A DNA stretch of 64,000 nucleotides from an uncultured Pelagibacteraceae bacterium (GCA_902628195.1 CACOLY010000005.1:1-64000); one strand, 5' to 3'; positions 39,131-56,536 are shown, counted from the first letter of the stretch. The notes: generated by a model not told the origin, from the letters alone. Program-made: numbers and translations.

Positions 39131-40108
39131 TTAAGAAATTACAAGAAGATTTAAAACTTTTCTAATAAATTTAGCTTTATATTTAAAAGCCTCTGTTTGA
39201 TAAGGTAAAATTTTTTTAAAATTTGTATCCGTTAATATATATTGTTTTTTTTCATTAATCTTAAGTAAATCTTTTTTAATTAAATATTTACATTTTCTAA
39301 TTATTGTAGCTCGAGGAATTTTTGTCATATCAGAAATTGACATTGCACTAACACCACTTGTTGCACCTAGATTCTTTATTAGAATATTACTAGTGGTAAA
39401 GTGATCTAATGCAGGTTTGTTAATACCACTTTCTAAATGTTTTGAAACATTTAAAACTTGGTTCATAGTTACTGTTCCCCAAATATGAAACGTAGTTAAA
39501 TCTTGCATAAATTTTTGATATCCAATAATCAAAGGTATTTGCATACGATAAAACCATCTCCAACATAATGAAAATCTTTTTTTAATAATTGTTTCAATCA
39601 TTTGAGGATCAAGTTTTTTTGTGTAAAGTTTATCTTTATTCAAAGCTTGTGAAACTAAATATATATATTTTGAGGAAAATTTTATCTGGTTTTCGGGTTT
39701 GACAAAAGGAAATGCTCTTCTATCAATTATGATCTTTTTTTTACTACGACTTATTACCCCATCTCTTTCAAGCTCTAAAACTTTTCTCCTTACAGTTTCT
39801 TTTGGTAAATCTAATTTTTCACAAAGTTCTGTAATACTGAATTTTTCAATTTGTTGATAAGATTTTGAATAATATTCGTCATAGCTATATTGAATTTGCA
39901 TTTGGTCGTAAAATTGAAGAGTTTTTTCAATCAATGAAATTACTACCATATACTTGTAATGATCGTTAAAAGACCAGTAGACATTATTCATCCAATTCCA
40001 TTGATGAAATATCCATTCTTTACTTAGATCAGAATAGTTTCCCATGATGGAACTATAAACCTGCTCATCAGTAAGTGTTTTGGTAAAATCTATTTCTTGA
40101 ATGCCCAT
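39131..40108 (-). CDS. Putative transcriptional regulator with two winged-helix-like segments
   Basis: FSITELCEKLDLPKETVRRKVLELERDGVISRSKKKIIID and MSISDMTKIPRATIIRKCKYLIKKDLLKINEKKQYILTD. Confidence 0.65.
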   Translation of the reverse strand: MGIQEIDFTKTLTDEQVYSSIMGNYSDLSKEWIFHQWNWMNNVYWSFNDHYKYMVVISLIEKTLQFYDQMQIQYSYDEYYSKSYQQIEKFSITELCEKLDLPKETVRRKVLELERDGVISRSKKKIIIDRRAFPFVKPENQIKFSSKYIYLVSQALNKDKLYTKKLDPQMIETIIKKRFSLCWRWFYRMQIPLIIGYQKFMQDLTTFHIWGTVTMNQVLNVSKHLESGINKPALDHFTTSNILIKNLGATSGVSAMSISDMTKIPRATIIRKCKYLIKKDLLKINEKKQYILTDTNFKKILPYQTEAFKYKAKFIRKVLNLLVIS

Positions 40109-40219
40109 AAAATTTTTTTTACGAGTAGAAACCCATTATGGACAGTTGTCAATCCAAAAGTGACCCAAATTGAACTTTGAAAAAATTGAAGCTTTAAGAG
40201 TTTCATGTTTTATTTAGTT

Positions 40220-40450
40220 ATGGATAATAAAGGCTTTGCAGAAATAAAAACTAATATCGAGACCCCAAATGGTAATAGTTTTACTGAAAAGCCTTTAAAA
40301 ACAAATCAAATTAGGCCCAATAGAGTCGATATAAATGTTTTAAAATCCAAACTTCAACAATCTGAGAGCAGAGAATTTAAAAAGAATGTTTATGTATTAT
40401 CAACTCTAGTAGTGGGGCTTGGGGTTTTAGGAATTTATCTATCCTTATAG
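40220..40450 (+). CDS. Small tail-anchored membrane protein (paralogue 1)
   Basis: C-terminal TM VYVLSTLVVGLGVLGIYLSL preceded by DINVLKSKLQQSE; similar to the next ORF. Confidence 0.6.
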   Translation: MDNKGFAEIKTNIETPNGNSFTEKPLKTNQIRPNRVDINVLKSKLQQSESREFKKNVYVLSTLVVGLGVLGIYLSL

Positions 40451-40491
40451 GAAAATTTGCAAATATTTCACTTCCATGATTAAATAATTTT

Positions 40492-40698
40492 GTGAAAAAT
40501 TTAAGCACATCAGTTCGTAATAGGTTAATTTCCCGATATCTAGATAATGATATTCCTAAGGCTCAAACTAAGAGTACTGACATTAATGTTCTTTTAAATA
40601 GAGTTAAATCAAATCAAAAAAATGAGAAAAGAAAAAAATTATATTTCTCTGCAGCAGCATCTACAGGTTTAATTCTTTTCGGATTGATAATTTTTTAA
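40492..40698 (+). CDS. Small tail-anchored membrane protein (paralogue 2)
   Basis: GTG start; TDINVLLNRVKSNQKNEKRKKLYFSAAASTGLILFGLIIF matches paralogue 1 in order and spacing. Confidence 0.6.
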   Translation: MKNLSTSVRNRLISRYLDNDIPKAQTKSTDINVLLNRVKSNQKNEKRKKLYFSAAASTGLILFGLIIF

Positions 40699-42210
40699 TT
40701 AACTGTAAAAAAATTTATCTTTAATTTGCTTCAAAAAAATTAAAAAACAAAGATAATCAAAAGGAAATCTGTGTCTTGCTATTTCACCATCTTCAAAAAT
40801 AACAAAAGCGGAAAAAATAAAAATAAAGGTAAATAACCAAAAGTTAATTATAATTGTTTCCCTATCTTTTTTATCAAATAAACTTTTTATTAAAAAAAAT
40901 AATAGTATTATATAAACAATCACTAATAAAAAGTTAGTATATTGAAGAGAATAAATAATTTTTTCTTTGTAATTTAAAGGTCCCGTATCTAAAGATTTAA
41001 AAGGTTGTCCATCTATTGTATAAACTGTTTTCCAATCAAACTCATATTCATAAATACATATTGGGGTCAATTTTATACAATCTGAGATTTTTATTAAATA
41101 ACTCATTTTATCAGCATTATGTTTTGTAAAATTAAAGTAATCACTTGAAGTAAAAAGGTGTCTTGTAATTGAATTAATTATATTCACTATAATTAACAAA
41201 GGCTGTTCTTTGAGAACTAATAAAAAATCTTTTTTTCTATATTTATCAACTTCGAAAAATACCTCATTAAAAGAAGTATTAGAATTCAACAATTTATTAT
41301 CATTATTCGATTCGTAATTGAGGTAATTTTTATAAAATTTTGCACCTGAATTAATTTTTACATCATACAATATTGAAGTTTTTTCTTTAAATTTTTGATA
41401 ATTTTGATGGGATCCAAAAGTTAAATCTCTTATTTTTTTATGACGATTCGGATCATCCATTTCTTTAACATATTCAATTTTTTGATTTAAATGCTCATAT
41501 AGAGATGTCGTATTGATAGCAAATTTATCAAATAAGATTAAATTTTTTACGTAAAAAGGCATTACAATAATTGTGAATATAAAAAATAATATTAATTTAT
41601 TTAAAATATTAAAATTTTTTTGAATGATGATTATTAGAATATACCCCCAAACAATATGAAATGTTTCTCTTGTAAGGCAAAGTAAAGATAAACTTAAAGA
41701 TAAATATAAAATATATTTTAAAGAGTTAGGTGTTTTTAAAATTCTTATAGTTGAATAGAATAACCAAAGAAGAAGAAAAAAAGTAATATATTCTTTGTAA
41801 AGGTGGTTTTCATATAAGATAGTGGTTGGTAATATCATTAATACTGCAGATAATGAAAAAGAAAAATTTTCTGAAAAATTAAAGTTTTTTGAAATCAAAT
41901 AAATCAATACAAAAGATAAAAATCCGATTATCAAATATATGAATTGAATGATTAAAAGATAATGATCTGAAAATTTTATCATAAGGCCAACAAATAAGTT
42001 TAAGAATGGTGCTTGCCAGTGATTAAAATAAATAGAATTCAAAAGATCATTTTCTAATAAATCTTTAGGAATAAACTGCCAATAAATATCAATAGTCCAA
42101 TTATCAAAAGTTATATTAAGAAAATTTAAATAAACAAATCTTGATATTATAAAAATTAAAAAAAGATAAGTAATTTTATGTGATAGAAAATTTGTTTTTT
42201 TTAATTCCAT
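40699..42210 (-). CDS. Polytopic membrane protein, probable GT-C-type (ArnT/PMT-like) glycosyltransferase
   Basis: Multiple TM segments; NHWQAPFLNLFVGLMIKFSDHYLLIIQ; next to a GT2 glycosyltransferase. Confidence 0.6.
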   Translation of the reverse strand: MELKKTNFLSHKITYLFLIFIISRFVYLNFLNITFDNWTIDIYWQFIPKDLLENDLLNSIYFNHWQAPFLNLFVGLMIKFSDHYLLIIQFIYLIIGFLSFVLIYLISKNFNFSENFSFSLSAVLMILPTTILYENHLYKEYITFFLLLWLFYSTIRILKTPNSLKYILYLSLSLSLLCLTRETFHIVWGYILIIIIQKNFNILNKLILFFIFTIIVMPFYVKNLILFDKFAINTTSLYEHLNQKIEYVKEMDDPNRHKKIRDLTFGSHQNYQKFKEKTSILYDVKINSGAKFYKNYLNYESNNDNKLLNSNTSFNEVFFEVDKYRKKDFLLVLKEQPLLIIVNIINSITRHLFTSSDYFNFTKHNADKMSYLIKISDCIKLTPICIYEYEFDWKTVYTIDGQPFKSLDTGPLNYKEKIIYSLQYTNFLLVIVYIILLFFLIKSLFDKKDRETIIINFWLFTFIFIFSAFVIFEDGEIARHRFPFDYLCFLIFLKQIKDKFFYS

Positions 42211-42221
42211 TCTGAAATAAA

Positions 42222-42947
42222 TTAATATCTATAAAATTTTATCATCATTAAACTTAATAATATCTTAATTGAATCTTTAAAAAAACTTATCTTTCCTTGA
42301 GTTTTGTGTTCCCAAATCACAGGTAGCTCAGTAATAGCAAGCTTCATTTTTTTTGAAATAATACAAATTTCTAAATCATGCATATAACCGTTAGTTTTAA
42401 TTTTAGAAAAAATTTTTTTTGCTATGTTTGATTTATATAATTTAAAGCCACACTGTGTGTCTGAAATTTTAACATTAAACATAAGAGAAATAGCAAACCT
42501 AAAAATAGCTCCTATTATTTCCCTACTTTTAATTTTCTTTACTTGAGAATTAGAATGATTTCTAGATGCAAAATAAATCATATTTCCTTTATTTATGTAA
42601 TCTTTTTTTATCCATCTAAGTATTTGAAAATTTGAGACTGAACAATCAGAGTCCGTTGTAAGTACCCATTTTTTTGTTGAATTTAACACGCCAGATTTTA
42701 ACGCAAAACCTTTACCTTTATTAACTTTATAACTTATAATCTTATATTGAATTTTCGAGTTTTTATTCAGTTTTATGAACTTATTAATTTTTTGTTTTGA
42801 ATTATCAAAACTTCCATCATCAACAAAAATATATTCTTTATTAATTTGACGTGTTTTTTTATTAAATTTCTTTATATCTTGAAAAATGTTAAACAATCTT
42901 TTTTCCTCATTAAAGATCGGGTATATTATTGATAAGTTTTTAATCAT
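42222..42947 (-). CDS. GT2 glycosyltransferase (dolichyl/polyprenyl-phosphate glucosyltransferase-like)
   Basis: LSIIYPIFNEEKRLFNIFQDI, YIFVDDGSFDNS, GKGFALKSGVL, LTTDSDCS, DTQCGFKLYKS. Confidence 0.87.
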   Translation of the reverse strand: MIKNLSIIYPIFNEEKRLFNIFQDIKKFNKKTRQINKEYIFVDDGSFDNSKQKINKFIKLNKNSKIQYKIISYKVNKGKGFALKSGVLNSTKKWVLTTDSDCSVSNFQILRWIKKDYINKGNMIYFASRNHSNSQVKKIKSREIIGAIFRFAISLMFNVKISDTQCGFKLYKSNIAKKIFSKIKTNGYMHDLEICIISKKMKLAITELPVIWEHKTQGKISFFKDSIKILLSLMMIKFYRY

Positions 42948-42998
42948 AATGATTTAAGTAATCATTTTTATATATAAAAAAGTATTTATTGTAAAAAA

Positions 42999-43027
42999 TT
43001 GATTGTATCAGGGTATTTTTCTATTAT
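42999..43027 (+). promoter_or_regulatory. Candidate sigma70 promoter for tRNA-Met (TTGATT-N17-TATTAT)
   Basis: Boxes at 42999-43004 and 43022-43027 with 17-nt spacer; tRNA begins 20 nt downstream. Confidence 0.5.
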
Positions 43028-43046
43028 ATATCTTCATTTACTATAT

Positions 43047-43123
43047 GGCGGGGTAGCTCAGTTGGTTAGAGCGCGGGACTCATAAGCCCGAGGTCAGTGG
43101 TTCGATCCCACTTCCCGCTACCA
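43047..43123 (+). tRNA. tRNA-Met (anticodon CAT), CCA encoded
   Basis: ggcgggg acceptor pairs with tcccgct; D-arm tagctcagttggttaga; anticodon loop ctcataa; T-arm ggttcgatcc; ends acca. Confidence 0.93.
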
Positions 43124-43144
43124 TAAATCATTAGTTAAAAATAT

Positions 43145-44197
43145 TTATTTAACAAATGTATCATTAAATTGACTTGATACTCTTACAAAAGTTGTACATT
43201 TGCTTAATTGTTTTAAAGATGGTGCACCAACATATGTGCAGCTACTTCTTACTCCACCAAGAATATTTAATATGGTGTCATTAATTTTTCCTCTGTATTT
43301 TACTCTTACTGTTCTACCCTCACTACTTCTATAATTTGACAATCCACCATAATGTTTTTTATTTGCAACTTCAGAACTTGACCCATAAAATTCAATATAT
43401 TTAGATCCGTTTACTTTTATTAATTTACCTTTTCCTTCATCATGACCAGCTAACATACCACCTAACATAACAAAATCTGCGCCTCCACCAAATCCTTTGG
43501 CAACATCACCTGGGCAAGTACAACCTCCATCTGCAATTACATGCGCTCCAAGACCATGCGCTGCATCCGCACATTCTATAACTGCACTTAATTGTGGATA
43601 ACCAACTCCAGTTTGAATTCTTGTGGTACAGACACTTCCCGGACCTATTCCAACTTTTACAATATCTGCTCCACTAAGAACCAGTTCTTGTGTCATATCA
43701 GCAGTTACAACGTTCCCAGCTATTATTGTTTTGGTAGGGTATTTATCTCTTACGGATTTAACAAAATTAGTAAAATGTTCTGAATACCCGTTAGCAACAT
43801 CAATACAAATAAATTTAAAAAAACTAAATTCTTTCAACACTTTATCTAAATTTCGAAAATCTTCTTTTTTAATACCTACGCTCAGAGCGATATTAGAATA
43901 GATTTTTTTGATATTTCTATTTTGTTTAATTTTTTTAATATCATGTTGTTTTGTTAAGCATGTAATCATTCCATATTCATTTAATTTTTCAGCAATACTT
44001 AATTCTCCGACACCATCCATATTCGCTGCCATTATAGGAATTCCAGACCATTCATTTTTACTATATTTAAAACGATAAGTTCTAAGGAGGTTTACATCTT
44101 TACGACTTTTTAATGTACTTCTTTTAGGTCTAAATAGTACATCGGAATAATCTAGTTTTAGCTCTTCTTCTATTCTCACAAAAAAAGAAACTACCAA
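43145..44197 (-). CDS. guaC: GMP reductase (IMPDH/GMPR family)
   Basis: LDYSDVLFRPKRSTLKSRKDV, GADIVKVGIGPGSVCTTRIQTGVGYPQLSAVIECADAAHGLGAHVIADGGC, FVMLGGMLAGHDE, SCTYVGA. Confidence 0.92.
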   Translation of the reverse strand: MVVSFFVRIEEELKLDYSDVLFRPKRSTLKSRKDVNLLRTYRFKYSKNEWSGIPIMAANMDGVGELSIAEKLNEYGMITCLTKQHDIKKIKQNRNIKKIYSNIALSVGIKKEDFRNLDKVLKEFSFFKFICIDVANGYSEHFTNFVKSVRDKYPTKTIIAGNVVTADMTQELVLSGADIVKVGIGPGSVCTTRIQTGVGYPQLSAVIECADAAHGLGAHVIADGGCTCPGDVAKGFGGGADFVMLGGMLAGHDEGKGKLIKVNGSKYIEFYGSSSEVANKKHYGGLSNYRSSEGRTVRVKYRGKINDTILNILGGVRSSCTYVGAPSLKQLSKCTTFVRVSSQFNDTFVK

Positions 44198-44318
44198 CCA
44201 AAATCATTATTTCAATTAAATTATTAGTTGTGGATAAGTATTGAAACGAAACTTAAAACTAATATAAATCAACATTAATCTTAATTATTAGATAAGAATT
44301 ATGTGAGACATGTGCGAT

Positions 44319-46430
44319 ATGAGAAAAACTATTCTTTTTTGTTTAATTTTCTTTTTTACATTTTTATCTAATTCTTTCGCTAATTTACAATTTAAACAAT
44401 CAAAAGATATTTCTGATGATACTGATGATTTAAGAGGAATTTTTATAAAACCAGATGGAACAAGGGTATATGTTACTTCTGATGATGCAACTCCTACAGT
44501 TATCGAATATACATTAAATGTTCCATTTGATATTAGTACTGCAACTAAAACTTCTCAAACTAACCTTTTAGTGTCTGGTGGGGCTGCTATGGATAAGCCC
44601 CATGCAATAGAATTTAAACCAGATGGGAAAGTCATGTATGTAATTCATAGTAATTCAGGCTCGGTCGGTGTAGAACAGTTTAATCTTACCACTGCCTGGG
44701 ATACTCAAACTTTATCATATGATGCTAGCTTGAGTATTTCTGATGATGTTCAGATAAGAGCTCTAGCTTTTAAATCTGATGGCTCTCGTGTGTATATCGC
44801 GCAACGAGATCATGGAAAAGTCAAACAATTTGATTTACCAACACCATGGGACTTATCGAGTGCAACCAATAAAGTAGAGTCAAATTCTTTTACAGGTGAA
44901 GAAAATAATTTAAGAAATATACAATTTAGTTCAGATGGAACCTTTATGTATTTAGGTGGAAATGGGGGAGACGATATTAATAGATATAAACTGCCTACTG
45001 CATGGGATATAGGCACAATTACGCATGAAACTACTTTTTCAATTAGCTCACAAACAGGTGAGATGCGAGGATTTAAGTTTTCAGCTAATTTTACAAAACT
45101 ATATGTTACTGGAGATGACGGAAGTAGTTCAGGTGATAATGTAATTTATGAATATGATGTTGATTGTGCTGGAACTATAACTTGTCTTGATGCATCAACT
45201 AATGCTGATGTAAAAGCTATCATTGAAGCTAATGTAGAGTTATCTAAAAGAATCATAAGGAATAATATACTTCCAGTGTTTCATAGAACTGAATGGCTTA
45301 GAAGACATAAAAATAAAGATAATCTTACAAATTTGAATGCTGAAATTGATTTTACAAATCAAAAAATTGCAAAATTAGTAAGCAATTTAGAAACTTTTAA
45401 AAAAGAAAAAGATAGAACTTACAATAGTGATGATTGGTTTCAATGGAGTGAGGGTAGAGTAAGTTTAGGTAAAAGACATGCAATAGATACTTCATCTAGA
45501 GATATTCACACATATGGTATTTCAATTGGCGCCGATAAAATTAAGGATGAAGATAGAGATACAATGTATGGTTATGTTTTTCAATATGGAAATGATAATA
45601 TTGAAATTGGTGGCCAAGGCACAGGATTAGATACAGATTCTTATAGTTTAGCTCTTTATGGAACAAATATTGGAGAAGATGATTTTTTTACAGATGGGAT
45701 TATTGGGTTAAGCTTATTAGATATTGACCATACGAGAGTTACTTATGGCAATACTCTCAAAGGAAATAGAGAAGGACAGCAAATTTATGGGTCAGTAAAT
45801 TTTGGAAAAAGATTACATCATGAAGAAATAAATTTAAATCCAGGAATAAAATTAGATCTTGGTTATACTAAACTTAAAGCTTTTAGAGAAAAAACAACAT
45901 TAGGTGGTAATTTAGCGGATACTTTAATTTATCGAGATCAAAATATAAAAACTGCCCTAGCTACGATCGGAGTACTTTTTGATAATACAGATAAAAGGGA
46001 AGATAAAATAATTAATCATCATGGAAGATTAGAATATGTAGGAGATTTAAGTCCATCCTCAAATGCAGAATTTTATTTTGTTAACAGTCAAAGTACTATC
46101 TATAAATACAAAACAAATAACGAGTCAAAACATAATTACAGAATTGGATATGGTTTTGATATAACATCAATAAGTGGTTGGTCAGTGGTTACAAATTTTG
46201 AAAGATTTGGTGCAAGTGGGAAAGGTTATAGTAATGAATTTTATATATCTTTAGGATATGTACCGATAGATGATACAAAATTTACATTTCAATTAAATGA
46301 TTTCAAAAATGCTGGTTTAGATTTTATTAAAAAAGTAAATGAACTAGATTTAAAAATAAGTACAAATTATGATTTTTTTAGTATTACACCTAATTACAAT
46401 GCAAATATTTCAATAAGTAATAGTTTTTAA
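44319..46430 (+). CDS. Secreted propeller-like repeat protein with C-terminal autotransporter/OM beta-barrel
   Basis: Signal peptide MRKTILFCLIFFFTFLSNSFA; repeats such as LRGIFIKPDGTRVYVTSDD, LRNIQFSSDGTFMYLGGNG, MRGFKFSANFTKLYVTGDD; C-terminal beta-rich barrel ending in Phe. Confidence 0.8.
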   Translation: MRKTILFCLIFFFTFLSNSFANLQFKQSKDISDDTDDLRGIFIKPDGTRVYVTSDDATPTVIEYTLNVPFDISTATKTSQTNLLVSGGAAMDKPHAIEFKPDGKVMYVIHSNSGSVGVEQFNLTTAWDTQTLSYDASLSISDDVQIRALAFKSDGSRVYIAQRDHGKVKQFDLPTPWDLSSATNKVESNSFTGEENNLRNIQFSSDGTFMYLGGNGGDDINRYKLPTAWDIGTITHETTFSISSQTGEMRGFKFSANFTKLYVTGDDGSSSGDNVIYEYDVDCAGTITCLDASTNADVKAIIEANVELSKRIIRNNILPVFHRTEWLRRHKNKDNLTNLNAEIDFTNQKIAKLVSNLETFKKEKDRTYNSDDWFQWSEGRVSLGKRHAIDTSSRDIHTYGISIGADKIKDEDRDTMYGYVFQYGNDNIEIGGQGTGLDTDSYSLALYGTNIGEDDFFTDGIIGLSLLDIDHTRVTYGNTLKGNREGQQIYGSVNFGKRLHHEEINLNPGIKLDLGYTKLKAFREKTTLGGNLADTLIYRDQNIKTALATIGVLFDNTDKREDKIINHHGRLEYVGDLSPSSNAEFYFVNSQSTIYKYKTNNESKHNYRIGYGFDITSISGWSVVTNFERFGASGKGYSNEFYISLGYVPIDDTKFTFQLNDFKNAGLDFIKKVNELDLKISTNYDFFSITPNYNANISISNSF

Positions 46431-46440
46431 TACTTCTCTT

Positions 46441-46968
46441 TTAATGTCCTGGAAATTCAATTAAATTTTCAATTTTGTAACCTTTTTTTTTTAAAGTTTC
46501 ACATCCACCTAGATCAAATAAGTTAATTACAAAGATAAAAGCTGAAACTTTGGCCTTTGACATTTCAACTAATTTAGCTGCAGCTTCAGCTGTACCACCA
46601 GTTGCAATCAAATCGTCAATAATTAATACATTTTCATTTATATTTATAGAATCTTTATGCACTTCAATAGTTGCTGTTCCATATTCCAATTCAAAGTCTA
46701 TTGAATGGACATCAGCTGGTAGTTTATTCTTTTTTCTTAACATAATAAAAGGTTTTTTTAAAATGTATGAAACTGCTGATGCAAAAACAAATCCTCTAGA
46801 CTCAATTGCAGCAATTTTATCAAAATTATATTTTTTAGATTTTTCAACTATCTGATTTACACACTCTGAAAAAGCATCTTTATCTTTTATTAGTGTTGTT
46901 ATATCTCTGAAAAGAATTCCTTTTTTTGGATAATCAGGAATTGATCTAATATAATCTTTTAAATCCAT
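46441..46968 (-). CDS. apt: Adenine phosphoribosyltransferase
   Basis: IRSIPDYPKKGILFRDITTLIKD, AAIESRGFVFASAVSYIL, VLIIDDLIATGGTAEAA. Confidence 0.95.
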   Translation of the reverse strand: MDLKDYIRSIPDYPKKGILFRDITTLIKDKDAFSECVNQIVEKSKKYNFDKIAAIESRGFVFASAVSYILKKPFIMLRKKNKLPADVHSIDFELEYGTATIEVHKDSININENVLIIDDLIATGGTAEAAAKLVEMSKAKVSAFIFVINLFDLGGCETLKKKGYKIENLIEFPGH

Positions 46969-47009
46969 ATTAATTTAAGTTATATAAATAAATAAATTAA
47001 ATTTTTAAT

Positions 47010-47882
47010 ATGGCAAATAATAAATTAGCAATCATAGGTGGTAGTGGCCTATACGATGTAGAGGAGTTTAAAAATAGAGAATTATTAGACTTAAAAACAC
47101 CATGGGGAAAGCCTTCTGACCAAATTTTAAAAACAAATTATAATGGAAAAGAGATTTTTTTTTTACCAAGACATGGAAGGGGGCATTTTGTTTCACCTTC
47201 AAACATTAATTTTAGAGCAAATATCGATGCTTTGAAACAATTAGGAGTAACAGACATTGTCTCTGTTTCTGCTGTTGGATCTTTAAAAGAAGATTTGCCT
47301 CCAGGTAAATTTGTAATAGTAGATCAATTTATTGATCGTACTTTCGCTAGAATTAAAACTTTCTTTGATGAAGAAATAGTTGCGCATGTATCTATGGCAC
47401 ATCCAACTTCTGATGGATTGATGAATGCATGTGAAGAAGCAATCAAGAATGAAAAAATTGAATATCAAAGGGGTGGAACTTATGTCGTGATGGAGGGACC
47501 ACAATTTTCTACATTAGCGGAGTCAAATTTATATAGATCATGGAAAGCAGATGTAATTGGAATGACGAATATGCCGGAGGCAAAACTAGCAAGAGAAGCA
47601 GAAATTAGATATGCATCGGTTTCAATGGTTACAGATTATGATTGTTGGCACCCAGATCATGAGAATGTTGATGTTCAACAAGTTATAAAAGTTCTTTTGG
47701 GAAATGCTGCAAAAGCAAAAAATATGATTAAAAATTTAATAGAAAATTTCGAAAAACATATTGATCCAAAAGATCCAACAAATAATTGTTTAGATGTAGC
47801 AATAATAACCGCACCAGAAAAAAGAACTCAAAAAACTATAGATAAACTTAAAACTGTTGCTGGTAGAGTTTTAAATAGATGA
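47010..47882 (+). CDS. mtnP: S-methyl-5'-thioadenosine phosphorylase
   Basis: LAIIGGSGLYDVEEF, FLPRHGRGHFVSPSNINFRANIDALKQLG, YVVMEGPQFSTLAESNLYRSWKADVIGMTNMPEAKLAREAE. Confidence 0.95.
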   Translation: MANNKLAIIGGSGLYDVEEFKNRELLDLKTPWGKPSDQILKTNYNGKEIFFLPRHGRGHFVSPSNINFRANIDALKQLGVTDIVSVSAVGSLKEDLPPGKFVIVDQFIDRTFARIKTFFDEEIVAHVSMAHPTSDGLMNACEEAIKNEKIEYQRGGTYVVMEGPQFSTLAESNLYRSWKADVIGMTNMPEAKLAREAEIRYASVSMVTDYDCWHPDHENVDVQQVIKVLLGNAAKAKNMIKNLIENFEKHIDPKDPTNNCLDVAIITAPEKRTQKTIDKLKTVAGRVLNR

Positions 47883-48949
47883 AAATAGACGGAAAAGAAT
47901 ATAGAACTATATGGTTTGAAAATAGTACTGTAAAAATAATAGATCAAACAAAACTTCCACATCAATTTGTTATAAAGGATTTAAAATCAGTAAATGATGC
48001 GATTAACGCCATTAAAATTATGGAAGTGAGAGGTGCACCTTTAATAGGAGCTACAGCAGCTTATGGATTAGTTTTAGCTATAATTGAAAATAATGATCAG
48101 TCATTTTTAAAAAAATCAGCAGAAAATTTAATTATTTCAAGACCAACAGCTATTAATCTTAAATGGGCAGTTGATAGAATGATGAATAAACTATCAGGCG
48201 TTAATAGTGATAAGATTTTAGAAATAGCTTTAAATGAAGCAAAAGAAATTTGTGAAGAAGATATAAAGTTTTGTGAAAATATAGGATTAAACGGTCTTAA
48301 AATAATTGAGGAAATTTATAATAAAAAAAAAGATACAGTAAATATTTTAACTCATTGTAATGCAGGTTGGCTTGCAACCATTAATTGGGGAACAGCAACT
48401 TCTCCTATTTACCATGCGCACAAAAAAGGAATTCCAGTTCATGTTTGGGCTGATGAAACAAGACCAAGAAACCAGGGAGCCAACTTAACTTCATACGAGT
48501 TAAATGAAGAAGGAATTAAAAATACAATCATCGCAGATAATACTGGTGGAATTTTGATGCAAAGGGGAGAGGTTGATTTATGTATTGTTGGTACAGATAG
48601 AACTTTAGCTAATGGTGATGTTTGTAATAAAGTTGGTACCTACTTAAAAGCATTAGCAGCTCATGATAATAATGTTCCTTTTTATGTAGCTCTCCCAAGC
48701 TCAACAATAGATTGGAAAATTAAAGATCATAAAGATATTCCTATTGAAGAGAGAAACTCTGAAGAACTATCACATGTAGAAGGTTTAGATGAAAAAGGAG
48801 ATCTAAAAAAAATACAAATTTATCCAAAAAAAAGTAAAGCTATGAATTTAGCATTCGATGTAACACCTGCTAAATACGTAACAGGTTTGATTACTGAAAA
48901 AGGTATTTGTGAAGCATCGGAAAAAGGACTTAAAGACTTATTCAAATGA
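47879..48949 (+). CDS. mtnA: S-methyl-5-thioribose-1-phosphate isomerase
   Basis: IKIMEVRGAPLIGATAAYG, RPTAINLKWAVDRM, ILTHCNAGWLATINWGTA, VWADETRPRNQGANLTSYEL. Confidence 0.95.
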   Translation: MKIDGKEYRTIWFENSTVKIIDQTKLPHQFVIKDLKSVNDAINAIKIMEVRGAPLIGATAAYGLVLAIIENNDQSFLKKSAENLIISRPTAINLKWAVDRMMNKLSGVNSDKILEIALNEAKEICEEDIKFCENIGLNGLKIIEEIYNKKKDTVNILTHCNAGWLATINWGTATSPIYHAHKKGIPVHVWADETRPRNQGANLTSYELNEEGIKNTIIADNTGGILMQRGEVDLCIVGTDRTLANGDVCNKVGTYLKALAAHDNNVPFYVALPSSTIDWKIKDHKDIPIEERNSEELSHVEGLDEKGDLKKIQIYPKKSKAMNLAFDVTPAKYVTGLITEKGICEASEKGLKDLFK

Positions 48950-49602
48950 AAAATTTAGATCAAAGAAATCAAATTATTGAATATTCATTAAAATTAAACT
49001 CTACAAATCTTTCGCCTCTTAGATCTGGCAATATATCTTTAAGAGGAAGAGAAAATAATAAAGAAGGATACTTAATTACTCCATCAGGAAAAAAATATGA
49101 AACATTAAAACCTGAAGATATAGTCTTTATGGGTTTAAATGAAGAGGAAGAAAATAACGACTCAAATAATAAACCTTCATCTGAATGGAGATTTCATAGA
49201 GATATTTATGCAAATAAAAAAGAAGCGTATGCTATTGTTCATGCTCATTCTCCACACGCAACAGCTGTATCTTCACACGGAAAGCCAATACCGCCGTTTC
49301 ATTACATGGTTGCTCTCGCAGGAGGAGATGACATTAAATGTGCTGATTACGCTACTTTTGGAACAGAACAGCTTTCAAAAAATGTAATTAAAGCTTTAGA
49401 AAACAGAAGTGCTTGTCTAATGTCAAATCACGGTCAGGTTGCTTTTGGAAAAAATTTAGACCAAGCTTTTGAACTTGCACAAGAGATAGAAAATATTTGT
49501 CATCAATACACTATTGCACTAAAGTTAGGGCAACCAAAGATTCTTTCATATAAAGAAATGAAAAAAGTTTTGGACAAAGCTAAAGATTACAAAAAAGGGT
49601 AA
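48946..49602 (+). CDS. Class II aldolase/adducin family protein; candidate 5-methylthioribulose-1-phosphate aldolase (Ald2-type)
   Basis: SGNISLRGREN, AYAIVHAHSPHATAVSSHGKPIPPFHYM, LMSNHGQVAFG; overlaps mtnA stop by 4 nt. Confidence 0.85.
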   Translation: MKNLDQRNQIIEYSLKLNSTNLSPLRSGNISLRGRENNKEGYLITPSGKKYETLKPEDIVFMGLNEEEENNDSNNKPSSEWRFHRDIYANKKEAYAIVHAHSPHATAVSSHGKPIPPFHYMVALAGGDDIKCADYATFGTEQLSKNVIKALENRSACLMSNHGQVAFGKNLDQAFELAQEIENICHQYTIALKLGQPKILSYKEMKKVLDKAKDYKKG

Positions 49603-49603
49603 G

Positions 49604-50644
49604 ATGATTAAAGTTGGGGAGCACATTACTCTGGATATCATTGGGACTGATAAAGAGTATGATCCATCAGTCTTTGAAAAAGTAATTAATGAAATTGCTA
49701 GAACTGCAAAAGTTACAATTCTCAATATTTCAAAGTATAAATTTGAGCCACAAGGTTTTACAATCTTGGCTTTATTAGCCGAAAGCCATATCAGCTTTCA
49801 CACATTTCCCGAAAAAGGAATTATAAGTTTTGATTTTTTTACTTGTGGAAAAATCAGCCCTTCAATTGCTATTAATATTGTTAAAAAAGAATTTAAACAT
49901 AAAAGAATAGTAAAAAAAGAGTTTAATAGAGATACAAGATCTTTATATCACGATATCTATAGCTCACCTGGCTTACAAAAATCATATGTAGTTAATGATG
50001 TATTAGAAGATTTTAAATCTAAAGTTGGTCAACATATTGAAATTCTAGATTTAGAACAATTTGGAAAATCTTTATTCATTGATGGCGAGATACAAGTAGC
50101 TTCGACTGATGAACACCTTTATAGCTCAACATTTGTTGGATCAGGTTTAAAATTAAATAAATCAAATGATAAGGCTGCTATTATTGGTGGAGGAGATGGT
50201 GGAGTTGCAAGAGAATGTATTTCTAAAAAATTTAATTTTATAGACTGGTATGAACTTGATCCAGAGGTAGTAGAAGTTTGTAGCAAACATTTGGGTGATA
50301 TAGGAAAAAAAGCTACTGAAAAAAATTCAGTTAAGTGCATATGGGGAGATGCATTCGAAAGTATTAAATCTATTAAAGATGATACATATGATCATATATT
50401 TGTTGATTTAAATGATGATCAATTTTGTATTGATCTCGCTGCAAAAAATATGGATTCTTTGGTCAGAATTTTAAAACCAAAAGGAGTTATTACTGCACAA
50501 GTAGGAAGCCAAGATAAAAAACCCCACCAAGTTGAAAATTGGTTAAATGTATTTCACCAACATTTTGGAAACACTAAATTATCAAGGGTTTATGTGCCTA
50601 GTTTTGATTGTTCTTGGAATTTTTCATCATCTATAAATCATTAA
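49604..50644 (+). CDS. S-adenosylmethionine decarboxylase - spermidine synthase fusion (SpeD::SpeE)
   Basis: N-terminal ESHISFHTFPEKG with S61, H66 and C81 at the spacing of class 1B AdoMetDC; C-terminal IIGGGDGGVARECISK...YELDPEVVEVCSKHL spermidine synthase core. Confidence 0.9.
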   Translation: MIKVGEHITLDIIGTDKEYDPSVFEKVINEIARTAKVTILNISKYKFEPQGFTILALLAESHISFHTFPEKGIISFDFFTCGKISPSIAINIVKKEFKHKRIVKKEFNRDTRSLYHDIYSSPGLQKSYVVNDVLEDFKSKVGQHIEILDLEQFGKSLFIDGEIQVASTDEHLYSSTFVGSGLKLNKSNDKAAIIGGGDGGVARECISKKFNFIDWYELDPEVVEVCSKHLGDIGKKATEKNSVKCIWGDAFESIKSIKDDTYDHIFVDLNDDQFCIDLAAKNMDSLVRILKPKGVITAQVGSQDKKPHQVENWLNVFHQHFGNTKLSRVYVPSFDCSWNFSSSINH

Positions 50645-50704
50645 ATTTTTCTTTTTTAAATCTTTAATCTGTGAAATACTATTTTTTTATTAAAGGAGAG
50701 AACA

Positions 50705-51532
50705 ATGAATATATTTAAGAAAACTATTTTTTCAGTTTTACTTTCTTTGTTGGTTATTGGAAATGTAAATGCTGATAAAATTAGAATTGGAACTGAAGGT
50801 GCTTACCCTCCATGGAATTCAAAAGATGAATCTGGTAAATTAATCGGTTTTGAAGTTGAATTAGCTTGGACACTTTGTAGATACATTGGTCAACAATGTA
50901 CAATCGTAGAGCAAGATTGGGATGGAATGATACCAGCTTTAATTATGAGAAAGTTTGATGCAATAATGGCAGGTATGTCAATTACTGCAGAAAGACAAAA
51001 GGCAATTAGCTTTTCTCAGGGTTACGCAGATGAAGTTGCATCACTAGCTGTTATGAAAGGCTCTAGTCTTGAAGGTCTAGATACTCCGGCTGGAATTAAT
51101 CTAACTAAACCTAATGCAGCTGCAAAAAAAGCATTAAAAACTCTTACATCAGCATTAGCAGGTAAAACTGTGTGTGTTCAAACTGCTACAATTCACCAAA
51201 ACTTTTTAGATTCAGGTGATGTTGGAAAAGTAAAAGTAAGAACTTACAAAACACAAGATGAAGTTAACTTAGATTTAGCATCAGGAAGATGTGATGCTGC
51301 ATTAGCTGCTGCGGTAGCATTTAGTGATTATGCAGAAAAATCTGGTAAGCCTGTTGTTTTAACAGGTCCAACTTTTTCAGGTGGTGCATTTGGAAACGGT
51401 GTTGGAGTCGGTATTAGAAAAGATGATACTGAACTTTTGAAAAAGTTTAACGCTGCAATTAATAAAGCAAGAAAGAACGGAGATATTAGTAGAATAGCTA
51501 CTAAATGGTTCGGTTTCGACGCTTCTATGTAA
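50705..51532 (+). CDS. Polar amino acid (Lys/Arg/Orn-type) ABC transporter substrate-binding protein
   Basis: Signal peptide; KIRIGTEGAYPPWNSKDESGKLIGFEVELAWTLCRYIGQQCTIVEQDWDGMIPALIMRKFDAIMAGMSIT; SD aaaggagag. Confidence 0.93.
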   Translation: MNIFKKTIFSVLLSLLVIGNVNADKIRIGTEGAYPPWNSKDESGKLIGFEVELAWTLCRYIGQQCTIVEQDWDGMIPALIMRKFDAIMAGMSITAERQKAISFSQGYADEVASLAVMKGSSLEGLDTPAGINLTKPNAAAKKALKTLTSALAGKTVCVQTATIHQNFLDSGDVGKVKVRTYKTQDEVNLDLASGRCDAALAAAVAFSDYAEKSGKPVVLTGPTFSGGAFGNGVGVGIRKDDTELLKKFNAAINKARKNGDISRIATKWFGFDASM

Positions 51533-51545
51533 TTCAATTTTAGAT

Positions 51546-51572
51546 TTGGCGACTATCATGTATAGTCGCCAA
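51546..51572 (+). promoter_or_regulatory. Intercistronic hairpin ttggcgactat-catgt-atagtcgccaa without T tract
   Basis: Perfect 11-bp inverted repeat between binding-protein stop (51532) and permease start (51578). Confidence 0.75.
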
Positions 51573-51577
51573 TCTGT

Positions 51578-52270
51578 ATGGAATTTCTAGCATTTGGAGA
51601 TACTGGTTGGGGTGATGAATTATTTCGTGCTACCCTAATGACAATAGCTGTATCAATTACAGCAATGTTAATTGGTTTCAGTTTTGCTGCAATATTTACT
51701 CCATTAAAGTTATCTAAATTTAAATCATTAAATTTAATTGCAAATATTTACACTACAGTCATTAGAGGTGTTCCAGAATTATTAGTTATTTACCTTTTCT
51801 TTTTTGGAGGAAGTGGAGCGGTAATGTTTGTTGCTTCTATATTTGGTTACAATGAATATATAGAAATAAATGCGTTTGTAACTGGTTCGTTTGCTATTGG
51901 AATTATATCTGGCGCGTATTCTACTGAAGTTTTTAGAGGTGCAATTCAGTCAATCGATAAAGGACAATTTGAGGCAGCAAAAGTTTTAGGTTTTAGTAAA
52001 TTTAAACAATTTTATAAGATTATTCTTCCTCAAATGTTAAGACTTGCAATTCCTAATTTGAGTAATGTTTGGCAAATAACTCTTAAAGATACATCGCTAA
52101 TTTCAGTAACGGGTTTGGTCGAGATCATGAGACAATCTTATATTGCAGCTGGATCTACAAGAGACCCTTTGTTCTTTTATTCTTTTGCAGCAGTTTTATA
52201 TCTGTTGCTGACGTTTTTAAGTATGAAATTGATAAACAAATTAGAAGTTAAGTATAGCAGGGGGTATTAA
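51578..52270 (+). CDS. Polar amino acid ABC transporter permease (HisQ/ArtQ-like)
   Basis: TVIRGVPELLVIYLFFFGG; GAYSTEVFRGAIQSIDKGQFEAAKVLGFSKFKQFYKIILPQMLRLAIPNLSN. Confidence 0.93.
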   Translation: MEFLAFGDTGWGDELFRATLMTIAVSITAMLIGFSFAAIFTPLKLSKFKSLNLIANIYTTVIRGVPELLVIYLFFFGGSGAVMFVASIFGYNEYIEINAFVTGSFAIGIISGAYSTEVFRGAIQSIDKGQFEAAKVLGFSKFKQFYKIILPQMLRLAIPNLSNVWQITLKDTSLISVTGLVEIMRQSYIAAGSTRDPLFFYSFAAVLYLLLTFLSMKLINKLEVKYSRGY

Positions 52271-52944
52271 TGGATTTTGAATTGATGATTAATAGTATTC
52301 CGAAGTTATTAAATGCTGCTATTGTAACTTTAAAACTTTTATCTGTATCTTTAATTGTAGGCTTATTTATTGGATTATTATTTGCAATTTTAAGATTAAA
52401 TAAAAACATTTTTATAAATAAATTTGCATATGGATATTCATACGTTTTCAGAGGAACCCCATTATTAGTACAAATATTCATAATTTATTTTGGCTTAGGT
52501 CAAATTGAATCTTTAAGATCTTCTTTCTTATGGGTGATTTTAAAAGAACCTTATTGGTGTGCAATTATTGCTTTCGCATTAAACACTGGTGCTTACACTT
52601 CTGAAATTTTAAGATCAGCATTTCAAACAATTAAACCTGGTATAATTGAAGCTGGTCAAAGCTTAGGTATTTCAAACAAAATTATATTTTATAAAATTCA
52701 AATTCCTATAGCGATTAGACAATCATTACCGGCGTACGGTAATGAAATTATTTTGATGATGAAAGGCACTTCGTTAGCAAGCACAGTCACTTTAATGGAT
52801 TTAACTGGTGTTGCAAAATATATAATTTCTACAACTTTTAAACCAATAGAAGTATTTATTGTAGCTGGTGGTATTTATCTATTTATGACTTTTATAATTC
52901 ATAATGTGATTAAATTTTTAGAAAAAAAATACAGTTTTAACTAA
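52270..52944 (+). CDS. Polar amino acid ABC transporter permease (HisM/ArtM-like)
   Basis: SYVFRGTPLLVQIFIIYFGLGQ; NTGAYTSEILRSAFQTIKPGIIEAGQSLGISNKIIFYKIQIP. Confidence 0.93.
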   Translation: MDFELMINSIPKLLNAAIVTLKLLSVSLIVGLFIGLLFAILRLNKNIFINKFAYGYSYVFRGTPLLVQIFIIYFGLGQIESLRSSFLWVILKEPYWCAIIAFALNTGAYTSEILRSAFQTIKPGIIEAGQSLGISNKIIFYKIQIPIAIRQSLPAYGNEIILMMKGTSLASTVTLMDLTGVAKYIISTTFKPIEVFIVAGGIYLFMTFIIHNVIKFLEKKYSFN

Positions 52945-54104
52945 AGAATAACCAGATCTAATTTTTGATTACCCAGTCTTTCGTTACCTTTTTCAGTAAC
53001 TAGATAAGTTTCTCCTAAGTTCATTGCTAATTGATTTACTGAATCCATCAAGATCATATGCATAAAGAAAACATTACCTGGTTCAATAACGTATGGATTT
53101 CCTGTGTATAACATAGGCCAATCCATCCAATTTGGAGAAAAAGTTGTACCCAAAGAATAGCCACATGCATTCATTCTAGCTTTGTTAAAACCAAGATCAT
53201 CAAAAGTCTTTGCGTGAGCATCAAAAACTTCTCCAATTTTATTTCCGGGTTTTAGTTTGTTTTCACAATTCTTTAATGCATCAACACAAGCTTCATGCAT
53301 TTTATGATGTTTAGGATCCGCTTTACCAATAGGAATAGTTCTAAACATTGCAGAATGATAATGTCTATAAGTTCCTGCCCATTCTAAAGTTAATTGATCT
53401 TGTTTATCTAAAATTTGTTTCTCTGATTGATATCGACATAGAAGAGCATTTTTACCAGAACCTATTATAAACTCATTTGCGGGATAATCTCCACCTCCTT
53501 CAAAAATAACTCTATTCATTTCAGCTAATATTTTAGACTCACTTACACCAGCCTTTGCATGTTTCCAAACTTCGTCTAAAGCTTTATCAGCAAGCTCAGC
53601 AGCTTTTTTTACATATATAATTTCTTCCTTAGATTTAACCACTCTTAATTTAGTTATTAGTTCTGATTTATCTTTAACAGCACAATAGTCCTCTAAAGAT
53701 TTATTAAGTCGAAGTGCATTACGTCCAGTTAAACCATATGCTTCATATTCAATCCCTAACTTTTTTCCTTTAAGATTTAATTCATTCAAAATAACTTTAA
53801 GATCATCAGTTGGATTTGATCCATCTTTATCAACCCAAATTCTAATATCTTCAATATTAGATGTATTTTGGGCTTGTCTTAAATCAGGAGCTCTAGTTAG
53901 TAATATTATGTTTCCATTTTTATCCAAAATTAAAGTTTGAAAAAAAACATATCCAAATGTGTCGTACCCTGTTAACCAATACATAGATTCTTGTCTAAAC
54001 ATTAAAAGAGCATCTATATTTTGCTCTTTCATTGAATTTAAAACTTTTGATTTTCTTTGTAAAAATTCTTCCTTTGAAAAATGAAGTCCCATTAAATAAT
54101 TCAA
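52941..54104 (-). CDS. M24-fold hydrolase, creatinase/ectoine-hydrolase (DoeA-like) type
   Basis: Creatinase N-domain (ALLMFRQESMYWLTGYDTFGY); TLEWAGTYRHYHSAMFRTI, GYSLGTTFSPNWMDW, LGETYLVTEKG. Confidence 0.7.
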   Translation of the reverse strand: MNYLMGLHFSKEEFLQRKSKVLNSMKEQNIDALLMFRQESMYWLTGYDTFGYVFFQTLILDKNGNIILLTRAPDLRQAQNTSNIEDIRIWVDKDGSNPTDDLKVILNELNLKGKKLGIEYEAYGLTGRNALRLNKSLEDYCAVKDKSELITKLRVVKSKEEIIYVKKAAELADKALDEVWKHAKAGVSESKILAEMNRVIFEGGGDYPANEFIIGSGKNALLCRYQSEKQILDKQDQLTLEWAGTYRHYHSAMFRTIPIGKADPKHHKMHEACVDALKNCENKLKPGNKIGEVFDAHAKTFDDLGFNKARMNACGYSLGTTFSPNWMDWPMLYTGNPYVIEPGNVFFMHMILMDSVNQLAMNLGETYLVTEKGNERLGNQKLDLVIL

Positions 54105-54490
54105 TAACTGGTATATTCTTTTATTTCCTTGATGACTGATCCAGTGTGATTGTTTATTTCTAATTTAATTTTTGCACGATCATCATTTAGAAAATGCACA
54201 TCTCTTGAAAGTTTGATAAACTTTTCTCCAAAATCTTTGTCTTTTTCACATTGTCTTTTATTATCTTCAATGATCCAAAGTTTAGCATTAATTTCTTTGA
54301 GTGATTGATAAAGATTATTCAACTTATCATCAGACTTAACATTTTTTCCTAATTGATCTTTTAAGATAGAATGTTCGTTGTTGATGAATTTTAACTTTTC
54401 AAGATCTTTTATTTTTTCCTGTTTAATCTCTAAAATCGAAATTTTGTCTAAAAGTTCTCCAATTGAAACTTCTACTATAATTTTATTCAT
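54101..54490 (-). CDS. DUF6165-like small protein
   Basis: IIVEVSIGELLDKISILEIKQEKIKDLEKLKFI ... LWIIEDNKRQCEKD; overlaps the following gene by 4 nt. Confidence 0.65.
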   Translation of the reverse strand: MNKIIVEVSIGELLDKISILEIKQEKIKDLEKLKFINNEHSILKDQLGKNVKSDDKLNNLYQSLKEINAKLWIIEDNKRQCEKDKDFGEKFIKLSRDVHFLNDDRAKIKLEINNHTGSVIKEIKEYTSY

Positions 54491-54522
54491 AAAATTTAAT
54501 ACTGTGCTATCTTGTTATAAAT

Positions 54523-55461
54523 ATGTCTAATATTTTAATAATTAAACATGGTTCATTAGGAGATATAGCTCAAGCAAGTGGTGCAATTCAAGATATATCT
54601 GAAAATCATAAAAATGATAATTTATATTTACTTACTACTAAACCTTATTTTGATTTATTTAAAAAAAATCCTTTTATTCACGAGGTGATTTTAGACAAAA
54701 GATTACCAAAATATAATCTAATTTATTTATATTTTTTAATGAGAGAATTGAAGAAATATAACTTTTCAAAAGTTTTTGATCTTCAAAATTCTTCCAGAAC
54801 CAATTTTTATAGAAATATTCTTTTCCCAAAGGCTGATAAAATAGTTTGGTCAAGTTCAGTATCAACATTGCCATCTAATAAAGATAAAGAAGAATTTGAC
54901 AAAATTTCTGTTCTTGAAAGATTTGACCATCAATTAAAAGAGTCTGGTTTAAATACACATAATACTTTAAGGCCTGATTTTAGTTGGGCATCAACAGACA
55001 TTAGTGAAATAAAAAATTTTTATAAGTTGAATAAATATATTCTTTTATTTCCTTTTTGCTCACCTCATTTGACAATTAAAAAATGGCCTTATTACAATAA
55101 TCTAATAGAAAAAATTTCAAATGAATATGGTGATGAGTATAAAATCGTTACTGCACCAGGACCTTCTGAAATAAATGATTCAAAAAATATTAATGCAGTA
55201 GCTTTGTTAGATAATGGAAAAGCATTAGATATATCGCAACTAACCTCATTAATTAAAGGAAGTTCTTTTGTAATTGCTAATGATACTGGTCCTGCACATA
55301 TCACTGCACATACCGGAACTAAAGGTCTAACATTGTTTGGCAAACACACAACAGCTTATAAGGTTAGTATTGAAAGAGAAAACTTTAGAGTAATTGAAGT
55401 GAGTGATCTTAAGAACTTAAGTGCTGAAAAAGTTTTTGAAAGATTGACTAGCTTACTTTAA
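54523..55461 (+). CDS. GT9 (heptosyltransferase-like) glycosyltransferase
   Basis: ILIIKHGSLGDIAQASGAIQDI, LFPFCSPHLTIKKWP, FVIANDTGPAHITAHTGTKGLTLFG. Confidence 0.87.
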   Translation: MSNILIIKHGSLGDIAQASGAIQDISENHKNDNLYLLTTKPYFDLFKKNPFIHEVILDKRLPKYNLIYLYFLMRELKKYNFSKVFDLQNSSRTNFYRNILFPKADKIVWSSSVSTLPSNKDKEEFDKISVLERFDHQLKESGLNTHNTLRPDFSWASTDISEIKNFYKLNKYILLFPFCSPHLTIKKWPYYNNLIEKISNEYGDEYKIVTAPGPSEINDSKNINAVALLDNGKALDISQLTSLIKGSSFVIANDTGPAHITAHTGTKGLTLFGKHTTAYKVSIERENFRVIEVSDLKNLSAEKVFERLTSLL

Positions 55462-56536
55462 GAACTTTTTTGTAATTTTCTACAATGTTAGACCAATAAA
55501 ATTTGGAAGATAATTCTTTAGCATTTTTTCCAAGTTCTAAGTATTTTTTATCCTCTATCATTGAATTGAGCGAAGAATAGATATCATCAAGATTATTTCC
55601 ATCACAAATCAATCCAGTTTTATCATGCTGAATTGCATCTGGGGCACCGCCATCTTTTCCACCAAGAGATGCAACACCATATTGTGCAGCTTCAACATAT
55701 GCAATTCCAAATCCTTCAACTGAAGTCTTATGTATGACAGACGGCATAACAAATATATTTGATTTGGCGATTAATGCATTTTTTAAATCATCACTGATAT
55801 CTTTAAAAAATATAACTTGTGTTCCCAAATCAAGTTCTTTAACTAATTCTTTTATGTTATCCTCTTCTTCTCCGTAACCGATACAAATATAAACAATATC
55901 TGGATATATTTGTTTTAAATTTCTTAATGCCATTAAAACTTTTTCATGATTTTTTCTTTTATCAAATCTAGAAACAGTAATTAATCGAGGTGTTTTAATC
56001 TTTAATAAACTTTCTACCTTGTCTAATGATTTTTTATTAAGCTCCTTAACTGGATTTACTCCGGGATTAATTACTACTATCTTAGCCTTATCAACACCAA
56101 TATTAATTGCTAAATTTTTTGTATACTCTGAATTAGCAATTACTTTTTCAACATCATTTAAAACTTTTACTATTTTTTTATTTTGAAAACTTCCTTTAGG
56201 ATGATTGATTTCTTTTCCATGAATTAAGCAATATTTATTCTTTGTAGTTTTGATTAACTCTAAGCTTTTCCAATGGTCAGCTATAATTCCTTGTATTTTA
56301 TTTTCTTTTAAAAATTCATTTATTAATTGAGCTTTTCTTATTTTTCGTAAAAACTTAATTCCTCCAACCCTTTCAATTGAAAAATTAACTTCTTTATCAA
56401 AATCTTTGTGATTTTCTTGGTAATCTGCAAAAACTTTAATCATGAAGTTCTTAGACATTTCTTTAGCAAGGCCCCACATTAAGCTTTGCATGCCGCCTAC
56501 TTCTGGTGGAAAAGATCTTGTTGCAATCAAATACAT
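55448..56536 (-). CDS. GT4 glycosyltransferase (group 1)
   Basis: RSFPPEVGGMQSLMWGLAKEM, ITVSRFDKRKNHEKVLMAL, VMPSVIHKTSVEGFGIAYVEAAQYGVASLGGKDGGAPDAI. Confidence 0.93.
   Translation of the reverse strand: MYLIATRSFPPEVGGMQSLMWGLAKEMSKNFMIKVFADYQENHKDFDKEVNFSIERVGGIKFLRKIRKAQLINEFLKENKIQGIIADHWKSLELIKTTKNKYCLIHGKEINHPKGSFQNKKIVKVLNDVEKVIANSEYTKNLAINIGVDKAKIVVINPGVNPVKELNKKSLDKVESLLKIKTPRLITVSRFDKRKNHEKVLMALRNLKQIYPDIVYICIGYGEEEDNIKELVKELDLGTQVIFFKDISDDLKNALIAKSNIFVMPSVIHKTSVEGFGIAYVEAAQYGVASLGGKDGGAPDAIQHDKTGLICDGNNLDDIYSSLNSMIEDKKYLELGKNAKELSSKFYWSNIVENYKKVLKVS

Follow-up and report, generated by a model that had tools for sequence, protein, structure and literature searches.

A spermidine operon of SAR11 bacteria with a predicted MtnP-type dihydroxyacetone phosphate shunt and an exchanged third step

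What becomes of 5'-methylthioadenosine (MTA), the by-product of spermidine synthesis? This question is raised by a locus within a 64,000-nucleotide stretch of DNA (hereafter the window) from an uncultured Pelagibacteraceae bacterium (GCA_902628195.1 CACOLY010000005.1:1-64000), where mtnP, mtnA and a class II aldolase gene precede a gene for a SpeD::SpeE fusion protein, with apt encoded divergently. The genome of the window comprises 1,024,646 bases, is ~93% complete and has its closest records among the Pelagibacteraceae, that is, SAR11. Few cells in the ocean are as abundant as those of SAR11, which reportedly rely on sulfur in reduced organic form. Depending on how they handle the methylthio group of MTA, each spermidine made either costs the sulfur of one methionine or releases a small sulfur compound to seawater.

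We consider it very likely that the operon couples spermidine synthesis to the disposal of its by-product via an MtnP-type dihydroxyacetone phosphate (DHAP) shunt. This reading draws on gene content and order, catalytic residues, the clade of the aldolase, the missing competing pathways and the exchange of the third step. From these we infer the following reactions. SpeD would decarboxylate S-adenosylmethionine (SAM) and SpeE would move the aminopropyl group onto putrescine, giving spermidine and MTA. MTA would be phosphorolysed by MtnP to adenine and 5-methylthioribose-1-phosphate. Apt would convert the adenine to AMP, and MtnA would isomerise the sugar phosphate to 5-methylthioribulose-1-phosphate, which the aldolase would cleave into DHAP and 2-(methylthio)acetaldehyde. 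5'-Deoxyadenosine may be processed likewise by the same enzymes. The operon would remove a toxic by-product and recover adenine and sugar carbon. The core of the initial annotation, which had described such a module, stands. Its terms "self-contained" and "nearly closed" were overstated: the operon contains no putrescine supply, and none of its genes is assigned to the use of methylthioacetaldehyde.

In Rhodospirillum rubrum and Rhodopseudomonas palustris the same three enzymes turn MTA into DHAP and methylthioacetaldehyde (PMC5893883). Enzyme families and reaction order of this MtnP-MtnA-Ald2 shunt are those found here, in R. rubrum likewise within one operon. When R. palustris runs the shunt aerobically, the sulfur passes through methanethiol back into methionine, with no enzymes assigned to this so far (PMC5893883). 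In view of this precedent a return of sulfur to methionine could also occur in SAR11, where the initial annotation had expected that there is probably none. Unlike these systems, the SAR11 operon includes the MTA source SpeD::SpeE and a divergent apt. It also resides in a streamlined marine genome without a RuBisCO-like protein (RLP) or a methylthio-alkane reductase component, whereas published carriers were mostly reported as terrestrial. The MtnK-type shunt of extraintestinal pathogenic E. coli (ExPEC) and the drdK-drdI-drdA cluster for 5-deoxyribose of Bacillus thuringiensis resemble the SAR11 operon in that an isomerase and a class II aldolase yield DHAP and an aldehyde, but they employ a nucleosidase and a kinase where SAR11 has the phosphorylase MtnP. 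The DHAP shunt has so far been described mainly in terrestrial and pathogenic bacteria; in the family sampled here, some form of it occurs in about three of every four genomes.

Organization and conservation of the operon

The five open reading frames (ORFs) proposed before (apt, mtnP, mtnA, aldolase and speD::speE) were recovered at their positions by ORF and family model searches (Table 1). The mtnP/mtnA and mtnA/aldolase pairs each overlap by 4 bp, a 1-bp gap separates the aldolase gene from speD::speE, and 41 bp lie between the operon and apt. Gene order was unchanged in all 80 closest SAR11 loci (median gaps -1, -1 and 4 bp), and mtnP lay inside the fetched stretch in 76 of them. In 73 of these 76 relatives apt was divergent and less than 400 bp from mtnP, a consistent linkage in line with the suggested adenine recycling; in all three locus types described below it was found wherever the contig extends that far. 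The genes mtnP, mtnA, aldolase and speD::speE are one tightly packed operon, an arrangement far beyond chance.

MtnA is the sole IF-2B-family protein of the window genome. In the fusion protein, the SpeD match covers residues 4-109 and the Spermine_synth/PF17284 part residues 119-340 of one ORF, and the ESH motif with the serine for SpeD processing is present. There is a chance that SpeD is instead an arginine/ornithine decarboxylase, like some phage SpeD homologues (PMC10407285, PMC9992855), but the Pelagibacter fusion is reported as active in polyamine synthesis (cited in PMC8437039). In that paper, the SpeD::SpeE of Candidatus Pelagibacter ubique is cited as having the same fused architecture, being active and accepting a broad range of polyamines. 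A link of this protein to an MTA-disposal operon was not found in the literature searched. SAR11 SpeE may also run backwards (PMC8437039), which would change the MTA flux.

Family, residues and placement of the aldolase

The aldolase is the only Aldolase_II (class II aldolase/adducin) protein in the whole window genome. Among solved structures, E. coli FucA comes closest, and the aldolase aligns with it over its full length. Residues E80, H99, H101, Y120 and H162 align with the catalytic residues of FucA and are invariant in 131 SAR11-like sequences. We take E80 to be the catalytic glutamate, H99, H101 and H162 the metal histidines and Y120 the tyrosine with the roles assumed for FucA. In a maximum likelihood tree of 50 rows, in which plasmid homologues served as sugar-side reference rows, a branch with support 97/91 parts E. 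coli FucA and the sugar-operon aldolases from the SAR11 proteins and 24 mtnP/mtnA-linked alphaproteobacterial aldolases. Among the closest non-SAR11 homologues examined, 24 of 25 are encoded on the same strand as, and less than 1.5 kb from, mtnA or mtnP. The locus combines a linked MtnP, a linked MtnA and an aldolase of the mtnP/mtnA-linked type with intact catalytic residues. It is a well-supported prediction from the sequence that this aldolase is the 5-methylthioribulose-1-phosphate cleaving enzyme of an MtnP-type DHAP shunt.

Competing pathways were searched for in the window genome. No MtnB was detected, the single Aldolase_II protein scoring under the MtnB cut-off, and no ARD/MtnD. None of the 147 family genomes had an ARD match above cut-off either; relatives gave three weak ones, which were partial, under cut-off and taken as other cupins. 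Neither an RLP (MtnW) nor a nitrogenase-like methylthio-alkane reductase (Mar) component was found in this genome, and the routes through these two were dropped. A single aldolase, no MtnD and no RLP: as far as the assembly reaches, this rules out both universal methionine salvage and the isoprenoid shunt. Of the known routes from 5-methylthioribulose-1-phosphate, the DHAP shunt is left (PMC5893883, PMC10986504). The earlier expectation that a complete salvage pathway is missing held for MtnB, MtnD and RLP/MtnW; MtnC and mtnK lay outside the search. The DHAP-shunt assignment itself was borne out by the grouping with mtnP/mtnA-linked aldolases, by scores far under those required by MtnB models and by the lack of universal salvage in the genome.

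Several points weigh against this assignment. Class II aldolases are promiscuous, and it is the gene context and the clade that suggest the substrate here. An L-fuculose-phosphate aldolase model gives the protein's top NCBIfam match, albeit under cut-off. The experimentally tested Ald2 sequences of R. rubrum and R. palustris stand outside the tree, and the absences hold for an assembly that is ~93% complete. PDB 6btd, presumably the B. thuringiensis aldolase DrdA, is likewise absent from the tree. As an exception, a Caballeronia aldolase from an mtnK-mtnA operon was placed on the FucA/sugar side; therefore, the mtn-linked aldolases are not one group, and two changes of the label are required along the tree.

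Other substrates or roles were weighed. Radical SAM enzymes produce 5'-deoxyadenosine, and this or another deoxynucleoside could be the main physiological substrate, MTA coming second. Other bacteria have bifunctional MtnP, MtnA and Ald2/DrdA-type enzymes (PMC10986504, PMC6079011), and a broad specificity of the MTA phosphorylase (MTAP) was proposed for Prochlorococcus (PMC11698098). We regard this as improbable: the MTA-producing enzyme ends the operon, and speDE stays joined in every module type, except in the speDE-less genomes of genus g5. It is quite improbable, too, that the protein is an aldolase for L-fuculose-1-phosphate or another sugar phosphate that came to lie in the operon by chance. 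The nearest structure and the top NCBIfam models speak for it, but every fuculose-phosphate model stayed under its cut-off (the curated FucA model reached 172 bits, cut-off 400), and the supported branch sets FucA and the sugar-operon aldolases apart. Furthermore, the 4-bp overlap with mtnA is conserved, and mtnA co-occurs near-perfectly with the aldolase or its substitute. Tree position and model cut-offs led us to reject a FucA/sugar-aldolase role. An MtnB-type dehydratase opening universal methionine salvage is extremely unlikely and was rejected on scores and absent partner enzymes: it would belong to the same superfamily and use the same substrate, but the weak partial MtnB match (67.6 bits) is about half of the cut-off of 137, the FucA aldolase tyrosine Y120 is kept, and MtnD (in the genome and, over cut-off, in the 147 family genomes) and MtnW/RLP (in the genome) are missing. 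A position in an MtnB or FucA clade, named beforehand as refuting the DHAP shunt, was looked for; the aldolase falls outside the FucA/sugar group and far under the MtnB cut-off.

Exchange of the third step among SAR11 relatives

The 147 family genomes were searched with the aldolase, MtnA, SpeD::SpeE and then a fusion protein. Many contain mtnA without the aldolase and have 2-4 kb of other DNA ahead of speDE. In these aldolase-less loci, an opposite-strand ORF of 677-679 amino acids lies between mtnA and speDE and joins a class II aldolase domain to a short-chain dehydrogenase. The product matches the fusion model NF006192 (887 bits, cut-off 639) and failed the RhaD-ADH (rhamnulose-1-phosphate aldolase/dehydrogenase) model (457 bits, cut-off 568). 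In 83 full-length fusion proteins, conservation is at least 97% for the Glu and His positions of the aldolase part (E127, H141, H143 and H202, numbering of the protein from locus L115) and for the dehydrogenase motifs NAG and YxxxK. The aldolase was present in 68 genomes and the fusion in 43; none had both (~20 expected). Exactly one of the two occurred in 108 of 110 mtnA genomes, and the two exceptions, together with three reverse cases, are incomplete genomes or matches at contig ends. Fisher tests, which do not correct for ancestry, gave p ~1e-15 for aldolase versus fusion and ~1e-27 for mtnA with either. On a SpeD::SpeE tree, a quick tree in which recombination at the locus could add or mask changes, the aldolase/fusion label needs at least 4 changes and all three module types need 8; the aldolase genomes G069 and G109 are found near the fusion genomes G101, G123, G131 and G146. 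In two loci (L117:7033-8288 and L118:6536-8323), unrelated genes (enoyl-CoA hydratase, CoA-binding-like, flavodoxin-fold) separate mtnA from the fusion gene, and this spot looks like an insertion hot spot.

A third module lacks mtnP, mtnA and the aldolase (G026, G078, G140, G143, G012 and G040). These six loci encode one phosphorylase-superfamily protein of 174-178 amino acids between apt and speDE, which resembles MTA/S-adenosylhomocysteine nucleosidases and scores under their cut-offs. The Glu and Asp motifs expected by analogy to MtnN, with the roles assumed from there, are retained in most of the copies. G005 has this short protein, while the genome search gave no speDE for it; G028 resembles the nucleosidase type, its locus being cut by the contig end, and G048 retained mtnP alone with a short aldolase remnant. 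The theme shared by the loci is therefore the removal of MTA beside its source, with apt for the adenine.

Outside SAR11, 18 of 30 alphaproteobacterial loci have the fusion gene less than 1.5 kb from mtnA or mtnP, and in every one of these 18 the strand is shared. Linked and unlinked fusion proteins are intermingled in the tree. Avoidance of aldolase and fusion extends to the class, where five genomes carry both (~20 expected). Several loci (L197, 1277-8043; L219, 5995-11996; also L221, L224, L229 and L234) show an mtnP-(apt)-mtnA-aldolase/fusion operon after genes that, judged by the sequences and sizes of their ORFs, look like those of the bc1 complex (Rieske, cytochrome b and cytochrome c1).

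We infer for the fusion protein the same aldol cleavage, followed by a reaction on the resulting aldehyde. The protein shares its aldolase plus short-chain dehydrogenase architecture with RhaEW, a rhamnulose-1-phosphate aldolase fused to a lactaldehyde dehydrogenase, which oxidises lactaldehyde with NAD+ and gives no reaction with NADH (PMC3870299). RhaEW orthologues are reported always in rha loci (PMC3870299), whereas the SAR11 and alphaproteobacterial fusion is linked to mtnA/mtnP. By analogy with this cofactor use, oxidation to (methylthio)acetate is our first guess; reduction to methylthioethanol is an alternative that would fit the "putative alcohol dehydrogenase" in the shunt as published (PMC5893883). 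On balance, we lean towards the view that the NF006192 fusion is an unrecognised DHAP-shunt enzyme that would cleave 5-methylthioribulose-1-phosphate (and 5-deoxyribulose-1-phosphate) and then oxidise or reduce the aldehyde. SAR11 lineages would exchange this fusion and the stand-alone aldolase for one another or fall back on the short nucleosidase; through such repeated exchange or loss, spermidine-derived sulfur would leave the cell in lineage-specific forms. The fusion may be a second aldolase of the DHAP shunt that brings its own aldehyde dehydrogenase, for a step credited to an unidentified alcohol dehydrogenase, and we propose it as a candidate for this missing step of a known pathway. 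The exchanges amount to a natural experiment: a widespread protein with loose annotation gains a role that can be tested. A literature search, with most subscription papers outside its reach, returned no description of a shunt role of the fusion or of a DHAP shunt in SAR11.

Coordinates and neighbouring genes

Table 1. Genes of the MTA module and the adjoining transporter genes in the window.
Feature	Position	Strand	Model match
apt, adenine phosphoribosyltransferase, divergent from operon	46441..46968	-	TIGR01090 196.6 bits, cut-off 185.9
mtnP, 5'-methylthioadenosine phosphorylase	47010..47882	+	NF006492 449 bits, cut-off 437
mtnA, 5-methylthioribose-1-phosphate isomerase	47879..48949	+	TIGR00512 422 bits, cut-off 279
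Class II aldolase, predicted 5-methylthioribulose-1-phosphate / 5-deoxyribulose-1-phosphate aldolase (Ald2-like)	48946..49602	+	PF00596 (Aldolase_II) 179 bits
speD::speE fusion, S-adenosylmethionine decarboxylase + aminopropyltransferase	49604..50644	+	TIGR03330 97 bits, cut-off 76; PF01564/PF17284
ABC transporter genes (binding protein + two permeases, lysine/arginine/ornithine type)	50705..52944	+	TIGR01096 231 bits, below cut-off 256

The ABC transporter genes adjoin speDE and probably lie outside the MTA module; no ATPase gene was seen beside them. They could supply an arginine-to-putrescine route and are present beside speDE in many, not all, relatives. In genera g9 and g12 (L131:8268-9065 and L129:5336-6136), a carbon-nitrogen hydrolase gene directly after speDE replaces them; its nearest model is deaminated glutathione amidase, under cut-off. 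A search for regulatory RNA in 40000-56000 found none at the operon, the sole RNA being a tRNA (43047-43120). Near apt, an IMPDH/GMP reductase family gene (43145-44197, minus strand) is a second gene of purine interconversion. The slot beside apt, filled by differing genes in relatives, holds in the window a gene for a 706-amino-acid protein (44310-46430, plus strand) that probably carries a signal peptide; its N-terminal part is repeat-like, and its C-terminal part resembles an outer-membrane barrel. On the other side, 52941-54104 (minus strand) encodes an M24 peptidase-fold protein whose nearest models, far under their cut-offs, are those of the ectoine hydrolase DoeA.

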